Of a stretch of DNA of 49,457 nt, positions 31,546 through 35,587 are shown piece after piece. Source of the stretch: Kineosporia mesophila (lineage in GTDB: Bacteria > Actinomycetota > Actinomycetes > Actinomycetales > Kineosporiaceae); assembly GCF_021129235.1 (NCBI RefSeq), contig NZ_JAJOMA010000038.1, forward strand, positions 1-49,457. The letters are read 5' to 3'. The position numbers were made by a program, and so were the translations under genes. Under the pieces are notes generated by a model. It was not told the origin of the DNA. It worked only from the letters and a program-made list of their open reading frames with translations, and ran no database searches. How positions within the stretch are numbered: the first letter of the stretch is position 1; every line of letters starts with the position of its first letter.

Positions 31546-32844
31546 TTACGCGGGAACCCGGGCCGGTACCGGTCGACTGAGAGCGACCCACAACCCCAGC
31601 GCGACCACGACGTTCAGCACAATGCGACCCATCGAATCGGTCAGCGTCGCATTATATTCATGCTGGACCCAGATATAGTTGGTGGCAGCGACCAACGAAC
31701 CCACAGCGAGAGCTGTGAATCCAGACAGCGTCGCGATCCGGACAGACTCGGGGACACGCGGCGGGGCCAGCACGGCAACCACGACCATCAGGACCACGAC
31801 ACCCACACAGGTGGTGAACCAGTAGTCGTTGCTACCCATCTGCAGGATCTGGCCCAGAAGAATCAGCGTTCCCCCGGCCACGATCGTGGTGGCACGACGC
31901 GAGTACCTGACTTCTGACGACGGCCGTTGCCAGGCCCAGGAGACCACGGCGGCCAGCAGCACCAGGCCCGCGAGAACAGCTGTCCAGAGACCGATCCCGA
32001 TCGTGACGCGGTCCGTGATGTATTGATCGTACTGACACCATGACCAGATCGGGTCGATGACGGCAACGCATCCGGCGAGGCCGACCAGGCCCATGGCTGC
32101 GGCCTCGAACCGTCCGCGCAACAGACAGACGAGAGCGATCGACAGACCGACGATCGCGAAGATCCCCCGGGGCAGGAGAACTGCAAGTTCCCACTCGTCC
32201 CAGCCCCTCTCCACCACGCGCCGACCGTTGACCCAGGGCAGCCAGAGCGAGAGCAGGAGGAGCGCCAGACCGGTCAGAACCAGCCACAGTGAAACACTTT
32301 CGCCCGGCGCGGCCTGCTCCACCGAGCCACGCACTGGGGTCTTGCCGCCCACACCCGGGCGGGTGCGCGTCCCCTGCTGGATCTGCAGCCCAGGCACCCT
32401 CTGACGCAACCGATCGACCAGCAGACCGATGTCGGAGTCGGCTTCCTTATGGCTGAGGCGGATGTACTGCCGATCGGCGATGGCCCGGATGTCGTCGGGC
32501 AATTCGTCGGGCGACAGGGGGCGGACCCCGTCGACCAGCACCGGCACGATCAGGAGCCCGTTCTCCAGAGCCAGCCGGATCTCGCGGCGCACCCAGTCAT
32601 TCGGTTCGTCGATGCGGCGCAGTCCTCCTTCGCGCCGTTCGAGCCAGCGCGGCCCGATCACGGCGAGCAGGACGGACGCGTTGGTGACGCCGAGCCGGAT
32701 CCGCTCCGGGAACGACTCCCCCATCTGCATCGTGCGGCTCGCCCGGAATACCTGTTCGGGCCCGAAGACCATCGACAGTTCCCGGTCGAGCGCCACCGAC
32801 CATCCCGGATCCTCACTGCGGTAGGTGATGAAGATCCGAGCCAC
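31546..32844 (-). CDS. TIR-domain protein with about eight membrane helices
   Basis: 432 residues from GTG 32844 (GGGGGG upstream). Residues 1-150 are a TIR domain: ARIFITYRSEDPGWSVALD opens it, followed by FPERIRLGVTNASVLLAVIG and DWVRREIRLALENGLLIVP. Glu88 in WVRREI sits where catalytic TIR domains keep the NAD-cleaving Glu. After a 30-residue linker come about eight helices (starting near 184, 219, 247, 281, 318, 341, 367 and 407). Bacterial TIR domains often make or break NAD-derived signals in antiphage defence; whether this one is a membrane effector, a sensor or a signalling scaffold is unknown. The gene is flanked by an XRE regulator and the 56-bp palindrome. Confidence 0.85.
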   Translation of the reverse strand: MARIFITYRSEDPGWSVALDRELSMVFGPEQVFRASRTMQMGESFPERIRLGVTNASVLLAVIGPRWLERREGGLRRIDEPNDWVRREIRLALENGLLIVPVLVDGVRPLSPDELPDDIRAIADRQYIRLSHKEADSDIGLLVDRLRQRVPGLQIQQGTRTRPGVGGKTPVRGSVEQAAPGESVSLWLVLTGLALLLLSLWLPWVNGRRVVERGWDEWELAVLLPRGIFAIVGLSIALVCLLRGRFEAAAMGLVGLAGCVAVIDPIWSWCQYDQYITDRVTIGIGLWTAVLAGLVLLAAVVSWAWQRPSSEVRYSRRATTIVAGGTLILLGQILQMGSNDYWFTTCVGVVVLMVVVAVLAPPRVPESVRIATLSGFTALAVGSLVAATNYIWVQHEYNATLTDSMGRIVLNVVVALGLWVALSRPVPARVPA

Positions 32845-33044
32845 CGATCAACCCCCCGGTCGATGAGATCACTGCCCCGTGCAGTGACACGCCGTGAGCA
32901 GTGTAGGCGATTTACGTCAACAAAAACCTTTGGTGGCATCAATGGGGGAATAGGTCACCGAGTCCTGCCGGTCACCTTCAGGGGGCGTCCCGGCGCGATG
33001 ACCGCGAACGCACGCCGTCCCGGTGATCCTCGGCCTGACCCTGA

Positions 33045-33100
33045 CGCGTTGTGTACACCTGGTACATCCGGTACCGGATGTACCAGGTGTACACAACGCG
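33045..33100. repeat. 56-bp perfect palindrome with GTAC every 9 bases
   Basis: Bases 33045-33100 form an uninterrupted perfect palindrome (28-base arms, no loop), centred at 33072/33073. Within it GTAC occurs at 33053, 33062, 33071, 33080 and 33089, exactly every nine bases. It lies between divergent genes, so it is more likely a protein-binding array or a cruciform than a terminator. Confidence 0.95.
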
Positions 33101-33126
33101 GCCCATTCGGCTCCGGCCCCAGGGCC

Positions 33127-33222
33127 GCTGCCCCTGCGCCTGCGCCTGCTCCTGCGCCTGCCGCTGCCCCTGCCGCTGCCCCTGCCCTTGCCCCTGCCCT
33201 TGCCCTTGCCCCTGCCCTTGCC
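33127..33222. repeat. Hexanucleotide tandem repeat (about 16 units of CCTGCC-like)
   Basis: Sixteen consecutive hexamers of the form (C/G)(C/T)TGC(C/G/T), mostly CCTGCC, CTTGCC and CCTGCG, strongly strand-asymmetric (pyrimidine-rich on plus). The array ends 42 bases before the next gene. Confidence 0.9.
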
Positions 33223-33252
33223 CCTAAGCGGTGAACCCCACGACCGCCGAAC

Positions 33253-33264: not shown

Positions 33265-33840
33265 ATGCGATCCCCCGCCGCCTACTCCTCCACCGCAGCT
33301 CCGGTCCTGCTGATCGGTGGCTGGTGCCTGGCCCAGGCCCGGCAGCCGGCGGCCTTCGATCCGCTGCGGAACTCGATCAGCGACCTCGCCGCGGTCGGCG
33401 CCACCGATCGCTGGATCATGACGCTCGCGCTGCTCGGGGTCGGCCTGGCCCACCTGGTCACCGCCTTCAGCCTCACCGAGGCCGCCCGCCCCGGACGCTT
33501 GCTGATCGGCGCCGGTGGGGTGGCGACCGGGCTGGTGGCCCTGTTCCCGCTGCCGGGTGACGGCGGCTCTTCGCCGGCGCACACCGCCTCCGCCACAGCC
33601 GCTTTCGTGGCCCTGGCGGTGTGGCCGCTCCTGGGCGCCGCCCGCTCCACCACGCCGCTGCTGCGTCCACCCATCTCGATCGTCGCGGGAGCGATCCTGC
33701 TCGCCCTGGCCGGATGGTTCGCGCTCACGCTGTTTTTGGGCGGACCCCTCGGCCTGGCCGAACGCGTGGCGGCCGGGGCCCAGGCGGTCTGGCCCCTGCT
33801 GGTGGTTCTCGGTGTACGCCGGGCCGGCCCCTCGGACTGA
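33265..33840 (+). CDS. DUF998-like membrane protein
   Basis: 191 residues with six membrane helices. FDPLRNSISDLAAVGATDRW after the first helix is the characteristic DUF998 loop ('xxxxNxISDLG'), followed by WIMTLALLGVGLAHLVTAF. Function is unknown for the family. The gene has no ribosome-binding site and is probably read from a leaderless message. The stop lies 10 bases from the end of the convergent DosS-like kinase gene. Confidence 0.8.
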   Translation: MRSPAAYSSTAAPVLLIGGWCLAQARQPAAFDPLRNSISDLAAVGATDRWIMTLALLGVGLAHLVTAFSLTEAARPGRLLIGAGGVATGLVALFPLPGDGGSSPAHTASATAAFVALAVWPLLGAARSTTPLLRPPISIVAGAILLALAGWFALTLFLGGPLGLAERVAAGAQAVWPLLVVLGVRRAGPSD

Positions 33841-33850
33841 TGTCAGGCCT

Positions 33851-35587
33851 TCAGGAGACGGACACCGTCCAGAGCAAGGTCGTGCCCCGGGCCCCGGCGG
33901 CCTGCAGATCCACCTGACCACCGTGGCGTTCGGCGCGCCGGCGCAGGTTCGCCAGACCGTTACCCGCGTGCTCACCGCGCAGGCCGACACCGTCGTCCTC
34001 CATCTGGAGTGTGAGCCGGCCCGACGACACCGTGACCTCGATCTCGACCCGATGGGCGTGGGCGTGACGGGCGACATTGCTCAGGCCCTCCCGCACCACG
34101 GCCACCAGGTCGTCGACGACGTCGCCGCGCAGAGCATCGAGCAGGCCCGAGAACCGCAGCCCGGGATCGAACCCGAGGGCCACCCCCATCTCGGCCACGA
34201 CGTCCAGGAGCCTCGCGCGGGGGCTCTGGGCGCTGCCCGGGGTGCGCTGGAGCTGGAAGATGGTGGTCCGGATCTGCGAGATGCTCTTGTCCAGCTCGTC
34301 GATCACCCCGGCGATCCGGCTCCCGGCCGGTTCCGGCAGGTCGCGCGTGACCAGCGACTGCAGGGACAGCCCGGCCCCGAAGAGCCGCTGGATCACGTGG
34401 TCGTGCAGGTCCGCGGCGATCCGGGCCCGCTCGTCGAGCATGGCTGCCCGTTGCTGTTCGGCCCGGGCCTGGGCGAGCTCGATGGCCACCGCGGCCTGGT
34501 TCGCGAAACCGCTCGCCGACGTCAGGTCTTCTGCCGAGAACTCTTTCTGGCCGACCCGTTTGAACGCCGCCAGCACACCGTGAACTCCCGCCGACCCCAG
34601 CAGCGGCACCGCCATCGCCGGGCCGATCCCCATGCCCGACGGAGCGAGCACGGTGAAACCCGCCTCGCCGGGGTCGCGCAGGCGCAGCGGTTCCTGGGTC
34701 ACGAAGACCCGCCCGCAGATGGTGTTCTCCAGGGCGAGCGGACGGCCCGGGAAACCCTGGGTGCCCTCGCCCACGGCGACCTCGACGGCCAGGGACTCCC
34801 GGTCGGCGCCGGGGAGAGCGAGGACGACGAGGTCGGCACCGGAGACCTCCCGGCTGCTCTGGGCCACCAGGTGCAGGGATCCCGCGTTGTCGGTGTCGGG
34901 GCTGAGGAGATGGCGGGTGATCGCCGCGGAGGCCTGCAGCCATTCCCCGCGCACGTGCGCGGACGCGTAAAGGCGCGCGTTCTCGATCGCCACGGCCGCC
35001 GTCGCGGCCAGCGCCTGCGCGAGCTGTTCGTCCTCCGCGCTGAAGGCTCCCCGGGTGCTCTCGGTCAGGTACAGGTTGCCGAACACCTCGCCCCGGATCT
35101 CGATGGGGACGCCGAGAAAGCTGTGCATCGGTGGGTGCCCGTCCGGGAACCCGGAGGAGCGGGGGTCGTCGGCGATGTGCCCCAGCCGGATCGGTTCGGG
35201 GTTCTCGATCAGGGCGCCCAGCAGTCCCTTGCCATCGGGCAGGTGCCCGATCCCGGGAATGATCTCGGGGGGCATCCCGACGTGCACGAACTCCTGAAGG
35301 ACGTCACCGTCACCGATCACGCCCAGAGCCGCATATCGAGCGCCGATCAGGTCGCGGGCAGCCTCGGTGACGTGGCGCAGCACCGACGGGAGGTCCAGTT
35401 CGGTGATGATCAGCTGGTTCGCCCGCAACAGGCCCCGCAGACGCCCCTGGGTCCCCATCACCTCGTTGGCCCGGTCCACGAGCTGACCGAGCAGCTCGTC
35501 CAGCTCGAGGCGGGGAAGGTCGGGAAAGGTGAGGGGCGACGCGGCCGTGACCGGTCCGGCCTCAGGATCGCCGTGGTCTGAGCTCAT
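33851..35587 (-). CDS. DosS/DosT-like GAF-GAF sensor histidine kinase
   Basis: 578 residues from ATG 35587, the same length as mycobacterial DosS as I recall it. Two GAF domains (about 62-205 and 225-375) precede the HisKA_3 helix with His395 in ADLHDHVIQRLFGAGLSLQS and an ATPase with REGLSNVARHAHAHRVEIE. GAF-A has GHIADDPRSSGFPDGHPPM, and His151 of HPPM aligns by eye with the haem-ligand His of DosS/DosT, followed by SFLGVPIEIRGEVFGNLYLT. It therefore could sense oxygen, NO or CO through haem. The response regulator is not adjacent. A PNPOx-like flavoprotein lies 122 bases upstream in the same direction. Confidence 0.9.
   Translation of the reverse strand: MSSDHGDPEAGPVTAASPLTFPDLPRLELDELLGQLVDRANEVMGTQGRLRGLLRANQLIITELDLPSVLRHVTEAARDLIGARYAALGVIGDGDVLQEFVHVGMPPEIIPGIGHLPDGKGLLGALIENPEPIRLGHIADDPRSSGFPDGHPPMHSFLGVPIEIRGEVFGNLYLTESTRGAFSAEDEQLAQALAATAAVAIENARLYASAHVRGEWLQASAAITRHLLSPDTDNAGSLHLVAQSSREVSGADLVVLALPGADRESLAVEVAVGEGTQGFPGRPLALENTICGRVFVTQEPLRLRDPGEAGFTVLAPSGMGIGPAMAVPLLGSAGVHGVLAAFKRVGQKEFSAEDLTSASGFANQAAVAIELAQARAEQQRAAMLDERARIAADLHDHVIQRLFGAGLSLQSLVTRDLPEPAGSRIAGVIDELDKSISQIRTTIFQLQRTPGSAQSPRARLLDVVAEMGVALGFDPGLRFSGLLDALRGDVVDDLVAVVREGLSNVARHAHAHRVEIEVTVSSGRLTLQMEDDGVGLRGEHAGNGLANLRRRAERHGGQVDLQAAGARGTTLLWTVSVS

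Follow-up and report, generated by a model that had tools for sequence, protein, structure and literature searches.

A perfect palindrome of Kineosporia mesophila is one copy of a dispersed, genus-restricted family of GTAC-box arrays with a 9-bp step

The palindrome and its surroundings

The window, a stretch of 49,457 bp of the Kineosporia mesophila genome, carries a long palindrome with regularly spaced GTAC boxes in the gap between a TIR-domain gene and a DUF998 gene. The features at the locus are the following.

33045..33100, strand not applicable: perfect, loop-free 56-bp palindrome (repeat search and single-stranded DNA fold)
33052..33093: 42-bp core found family-wide, TGTACA...TGTACA, with five GTAC boxes in 9-bp steps
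33053-33056, 33062-33065, 33071-33074, 33080-33083 and 33089-33092: the GTAC boxes (pattern search)
33020..33123, minus strand as defined by the flanks: approximate extent of the whole dispersed element, from the conserved block of the family (~30 + 42 + 32 bp)
33014-33131: covariance-model match of the window copy, 105.3 bits on the minus strand versus 88.8 on the plus strand, this copy being among the model's own sequences
31546..32844, minus strand: TIR-domain gene (Pfam, TIR_2), apparently an incidental neighbour
33265..33840, plus strand: DUF998 gene (Pfam), apparently an incidental neighbour

The 28-nt arms of the palindrome (33045-33072 and 33073-33100) are 100% complementary, with 0 nt between them. 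The pattern GTAC-N5-GTAC-N5-GTAC has exact matches starting at 33053, 33062 and 33071; together these put a GTAC at each of the five positions. A preliminary description made from the sequence alone had reported the loop-free 56-bp palindrome, the exact 9-bp spacing of five GTAC sites and TIR and DUF998-like neighbours; the first two hold under these searches and both gene names are confirmed by Pfam. The core reads T GTAC ACCTG GTAC ATCCG GTAC CGGAT GTAC CAGGT GTAC A. With up to 2 mismatches the three-box pattern matches 6 times in the window, versus 0.38 expected per shuffle, and the palindrome folded as single-stranded DNA reaches -33.8 kcal/mol (z = -12.5 versus shuffles). The gap upstream of the DUF998 gene also holds, directly beside the palindrome (33112-33231), an imperfect minisatellite of CTGCCC-like units in a 12-bp register with 7 overlapping copies. 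The DUF998 gene is adjoined on the opposite strand by a gene for a GAF-GAF histidine kinase (HisKA_3; 33851-35587, minus strand). The window copy sits in a stretch that is missing from the closest relative compared, in which other DNA is found next to the TIR-side and kinase-side sequences.

A dispersed family in four Kineosporia species

Genomes are labelled G000 (this genome), G005 (the closest relative compared), G004 (K. babensis, JCM 31032) and G001 (K. rhizophila, JCM 9960); G002 and G003 are the two other species of the genus. The search of the genome and its relatives that the preliminary description had proposed yields dozens of copies in four Kineosporia species. A 24-nt half-unit with up to 3 mismatches matches 32 times per strand in the 7.78-Mb G000 genome and 0 times in the reversed control. 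Matches to a 22-nt form occur in 13 of the 58 genomes searched, its own included; within the genus they number 36 + 36 in G005 and 0-4 per strand in the other four. A covariance model was constructed from 29 oriented G000 copies. Summed over both strands, it matches 74 times in G000, 83 times in G005, 47 times in G004, 25 times in G001, once in G003 and not at all in G002; seven genomes belonging to other genera of the family have 0-2 matches each. Halved to sites, these correspond to ~37, ~41, ~23 and ~12 in the four array-bearing genomes, counts that may be low because 150 first-look candidates were scored per genome.

A search of 84,980 species genomes, a collection that possibly leaves out G000, did not find the exact 24-nt centre. 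In the same collection, a looser four-box pattern hits K. babensis and K. rhizophila in 5 stretches and Streptomyces corynorhini in one. The Streptomyces match (L195:4778-4824) lies directly past the end of a called gene and is a hairpin in which four GTAC boxes keep the 9-bp step, either an independent look-alike or a terminator. Viral contigs lack the exact 22-nt centre, and phage and plasmid collections contain no match to the element; a scan of viral sequences with the bare five-box pattern is uninformative, probably since 9 bp equal three codons. The element is dispersed, constrained and genus-restricted, being present in four of the six Kineosporia genomes examined, and the existence of a dispersed GTAC-array family in Kineosporia is well supported. 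The open-access papers searched yielded no published description of an intergenic palindrome or repeat of Kineosporia, the one text match concerning Ms1 RNA; nothing of use came from a broader search on repeats in actinobacteria.

The same core recurs at many other sites of G000 and at orthologous positions of a second genome, which makes a fold-back or assembly artefact unlikely. The palindrome, first described as a lone site in the TIR/DUF998 gap, is instead one copy of a dispersed family, and the proposal of an origin or a single recombination site fits poorly with dozens of dispersed copies.

Anatomy of the element

In copies oriented by their flanks, the conserved region reaches ~30 bp beyond the left end of the 42-bp core and ~32 bp beyond its right end before dropping to background (49 copies, 21 ortholog partners dropped); orientation was picked on 36 bp per side, so the flank signal is inflated and the right boundary blurred. 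The whole element, including these weak asymmetric flanks, measures ~107 bp. However, C2:260116 and C13:98018, G005 copies whose G000 partner is not part of the model, also prefer one strand, by 19 and 13 bits. Flanks of ~30 bp per side are common to non-orthologous copies, indicating that the element was copied around the genome in the past.

The number of GTAC boxes varies, with mostly 4 or 5 per copy. The 9-bp step is kept in the four-box copies L048, L073, L103 and L106, the first of which is the ortholog of five-box L089. Other perfect palindromes bear symmetric replacements inside the boxes, GTTC/GAAC in L344, L345 and L348 and GGAC/GTCC in L346. No solitary half-unit was seen, as each of the four one-arm-only matches has a shorter or diverged second arm. 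The family alignment has no GTAG column; CGTC is found in some copies only, in columns of low information.

Genomic placement

No called gene covers any of the 69 classed copies of G000 and G005 (71 loci, 2 skipped; a crude gene caller was used), and 4 of the 39 arrays of G004 and G001 lie inside called frames, two of them weak (L189, L190). Among 96 classed copies of the four genomes, with ortholog pairs counted twice, 53 lie between tandem, 25 between convergent and 18 between divergent genes. A confinement to convergent gene ends, the arrangement that the preliminary description associated with a terminator, is therefore not found. The orientations show no departure from 1:2:1 in G000 (p = 0.65) or G005 (p = 0.30). 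Convergent gaps are over-represented relative to a small length-weighted control drawn from these loci (63% tandem, 35% divergent, ~2% convergent), which argues against purely random placement and leaves room for a role at gene ends. The median distance in G000 and G005 is 142 bp to a gene 3' end (n = 74, only 5 of them under 60 bp) and 226 bp to a 5' end (n = 60).

The 30 proteins scanned of the 57 encoded beside G000 copies have no common functional theme. Six clusters of neighbour proteins recur across genomes beyond the close pair, among which Pfam identifies PEP mutase, GntR-UTRA and RsgA, and a VOC-like protein was recognised by eye. Two gaps hold arrays in both G004 and G001, the divergent PEP mutase/GntR-UTRA gap and the one after RsgA, within surrounding sequence that is hardly alignable.

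Arrays are found 30 and 76 kb from dnaA. On G005 contig C1, where dnaA lies at 251577, the arrays are oriented + to its right (4/4, one by 1 bit) and mostly - to its left (2/3); array orientation on this contig may relate to replication direction, the arrays being few. L063/L077, L045/L093 and L054/L084 have synteny on one side only, arrays being sometimes located at the boundaries of rearrangements or large indels. The array-bearing assemblies consist of 61-90 contigs, and three G000 arrays (C22:99, C35:129 and C19:109506 of 109715) lie within ~250 bp of contig ends, as expected if palindromic repeats break assembly.

Constraint on the core

In the near-canonical set, namely 62 of 71 loci, gathered by similarity to the core and having at most 6 mismatches in it, changes affect 5 of 1240 GTAC positions versus 50 of 1240 spacer positions (Fisher p = 1.4e-10); at least five later-found copies with in-box changes (L344, L345, L346, L348, L349) stand outside this count. 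The G000/G005 orthologs differ at 4 of 420 GTAC positions and 15 of 420 spacer positions (p = 0.018) in 21 of 24 pairs, three with a four-box member being excluded and some being syntenic on one side only. In the flanks of the same pairs, differences amount to 14/251 in the next 6 bp (the inner arms), 365/1218 in bases 7-36, 565/1687 in bases 37-80 and 807/2754 in bases 81-150, the far-flank figures including poorly alignable intergenic DNA while longer aligned blocks are mostly 90-95% identical. Constraint on the family core is well supported by these sequence comparisons.

Thirteen counterpart regions have no partner copy. The closest approach to the 42-bp core in these regions has 18-20 mismatches; five of the regions contain 12/16-box matches, which are located away from the counterpart position. 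The lack of a near-intact core in these regions indicates that copies tend to be kept nearly intact or lost, with little sign of decay. Two counterpart regions (L050/L140 and L055/L141) retain a piece of the left arm and look like G005 deletions starting inside the palindrome.

The 19 ortholog differences include 2 compensated pairs (chance p = 0.034), perhaps not independent because both are the same change on one G005 contig. Such changes suggest that the two close species also restore the symmetry, either through selection acting on the dyad or through quasi-palindrome correction.

Phasing without the palindrome

Palindromy is nearly perfect in G000 and G005 and largely lost in K. babensis and K. 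rhizophila. The 28 arrays of the former and 11 of the latter have mostly four or five GTAC boxes in 9-bp steps, separated by spacers that do not mirror each other. Several include one imperfect box and a few are still palindromic, such as L173, L174 and L343. An example of phasing without pairing in G004 is:

GTACATCGAGTACATCAGGTACCAGGTGTAC

The G004 arrays bear the same end half-site, about RWYGYGTACAYC / RWYG(T/C)GTACAYC, at both ends, and these ends need not pair.

A four-box 9-bp pattern with up to 2 mismatches gives the following numbers of matches in the forward pattern and its reversed control, one array being able to yield several matches: 110/9 in G000, 140/16 in G005, 56/12 in G004, 34/13 in G001, 13/18 in G002 and 8/15 in G003. 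A stricter four-box form, with up to 3 mismatches, gives 12/0 in G001, 1/0 in G002 and 1/1 in G003. The 8-bp-step version, a control that lacks the codon phase behind the coding background of the 9-bp pattern, matches once each in G000, G005 and G001 and 0 times in G004, G002 and G003. Because the G004 and G001 arrays were picked out with the 9-bp pattern, their phasing is to some extent built in, and its support rests on the counts against these controls.

A putative protein-binding array

The box and the 9-bp step are common to the four species and the pairing is not, which suggests that a protein repeating every 9 bp reads the duplex DNA. The preliminary description had offered a cooperative protein-binding array among several options, and this is the best supported of them since the phasing survives where the palindrome is lost; no candidate protein for the arrays was found. 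A cruciform, also offered, is possible for the perfect copies and for those only.

We give roughly an even chance to the hypothesis that the palindrome is the core of a dispersed GTAC-box platform bound cooperatively by a predicted protein. A sequence-specific protein would bind the GTAC boxes side by side, probably as dimers or as directional protomers, which would make contact with one another at 9-bp intervals, running inwards from both ends to the central GTAC. Several boxes together would form a single high-affinity nucleoprotein platform, used in DNA organisation, in segregation or division timing, or in self-maintenance, rather than in switching a neighbouring gene. The location of copies beside unrelated genes and the lack of a 5'-end preference make a chromosome-level role (or self-maintenance) more likely than local switching. 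The symmetric double changes count against this explanation, as a plain array model does not require renewed palindromy.

Known systems share parts of this anatomy. The MerR-like protein BldC of Streptomyces is described as binding cooperatively with one protomer per 9-bp repeat, the number of repeats being variable (PMC5859096), and the Kineosporia arrays have the same 9-bp step and a variable number of boxes. BldC sites are direct repeats with AT-rich stretches at promoters, whereas the GTAC boxes are arranged in inverted halves with no 5'-end preference. BldC itself is above cut-off in each of the 8 genomes searched, with two in G009, and four of these genomes (G002, G003, G008 and G009) are at array background (0-1 model matches). 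This conservation in array-free genomes means that canonical BldC is not the explanation, and its candidacy as the array binder is not supported.

MetJ and Arc bind as dimers side by side on tandem self-palindromic boxes with a step of 8 or 11. The Kineosporia boxes are likewise tandem and self-palindromic; they differ in their step of 9 bp.

The nearest working analogue is probably the dispersed sites of Noc, of which about 70 (NBSs) are reported over the chromosome (PMC4331003). As with Noc/SlmA-type sites, tens of palindromic sites are distributed across the chromosome; in the known system a protein binds them and forms nucleoprotein complexes (PMC4331003). The Kineosporia sites differ in being multi-box arrays of 31-40 bp. 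A more speculative and rather unlikely extension is that the ~12-40 arrays of some Kineosporia species would mark their chromosome and nucleate a 9-bp-stepped protein filament, as an unrecognised actinobacterial analogue of the Noc, SlmA or MatP site systems that evolved or was acquired within the genus.

Alternative explanations

The alternative that survives best, possible though clearly doubtful, is a selfish element of the repetitive extragenic palindrome or MITE kind, in which the palindrome would be a hairpin mobilised in trans and its conservation would reflect recent spread. It would account for the dispersal outside called genes, for the ~107-bp block with flanks shared by non-orthologous copies, for the variable presence of copies between close species and for the symmetry of both arms. 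Like REP/REPIN sequences, the arrays are intergenic inverted units dispersed in one lineage (PMC3116915, PMC3733652). They differ by the absence of a RAYT in G000 and G005, of a conserved GTAG/CGTC tag and of solitary halves, and by the internal 9-bp phasing; the ~37 sites of G000 compare with the 560 REPIN doublets given for P. fluorescens SBW25. A survey of REP sequences describes GTAG- and CGTC-tagged palindromes in 8 phyla, and the word 'Actinobacteria' is absent from its main text (PMC3733652). Mobility by RAYT is not supported: the transposase search, which covered the Y1 family PF01797, finds none in G000, G005, G001, G002 and G003 and one match in G004. Among 8 presence/absence pairs that were aligned, no clean insertion with target duplication is seen, L042/L139 being ambiguous, and ortholog cores are much less diverged than their flanks, unlike a neutral relic.

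An RNA hairpin acting as bidirectional terminator, insulator or protector of mRNA ends is improbable. The very stable fold, the compensatory changes and the excess of convergent gaps speak for it, and on the flank-defined strand core mismatches favour G-T over A-C by 10:2 (hand count of 12 mismatches; p = 0.039), which hints at RNA pairing. However, no T-run follows the stem in the window on either strand, with the sequence on both sides inspected, no Rfam match in the window reaches the gathering score, gene 3' ends are mostly distant, and the copies between divergent genes do not fit. Most G004 and G001 arrays are poorly paired and show no strand agreement of wobble pairs (103 concordant, 94 discordant; p = 0.26). 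A simple terminator is not supported, though convergent gaps are enriched.

The operator of a dedicated transcription regulator that controls the adjacent genes is very unlikely. The multi-box anatomy resembles that of an operator and the conserved PEP mutase/GntR-UTRA gap has an array in two species, but the 30 scanned G000 neighbours are functionally unrelated and the copies between convergent genes, like the absence of a 5'-end preference, do not suit it; a local regulon is not supported by the G000 neighbours. Least probable of all is a mutational by-product, in which quasi-palindrome correction and conversion between copies would keep the sequence perfect without function: the symmetric double changes agree with it, as does an intermediate altered on one arm (L044 versus L104), but it does not explain why the GTAC boxes of near-canonical copies change tenfold less than their spacers, or why there are phased arrays that are not palindromes.

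Significance

Four species of Kineosporia carry about a dozen to forty constrained intergenic arrays whose exact 9-bp box step is unusual, and two other species of the genus are at background only. This presence in four and absence in two makes a direct hunt for the binding protein feasible. It could also bring to light a factor that organises the chromosome, or a novel kind of dispersed palindromic element in Actinobacteria.
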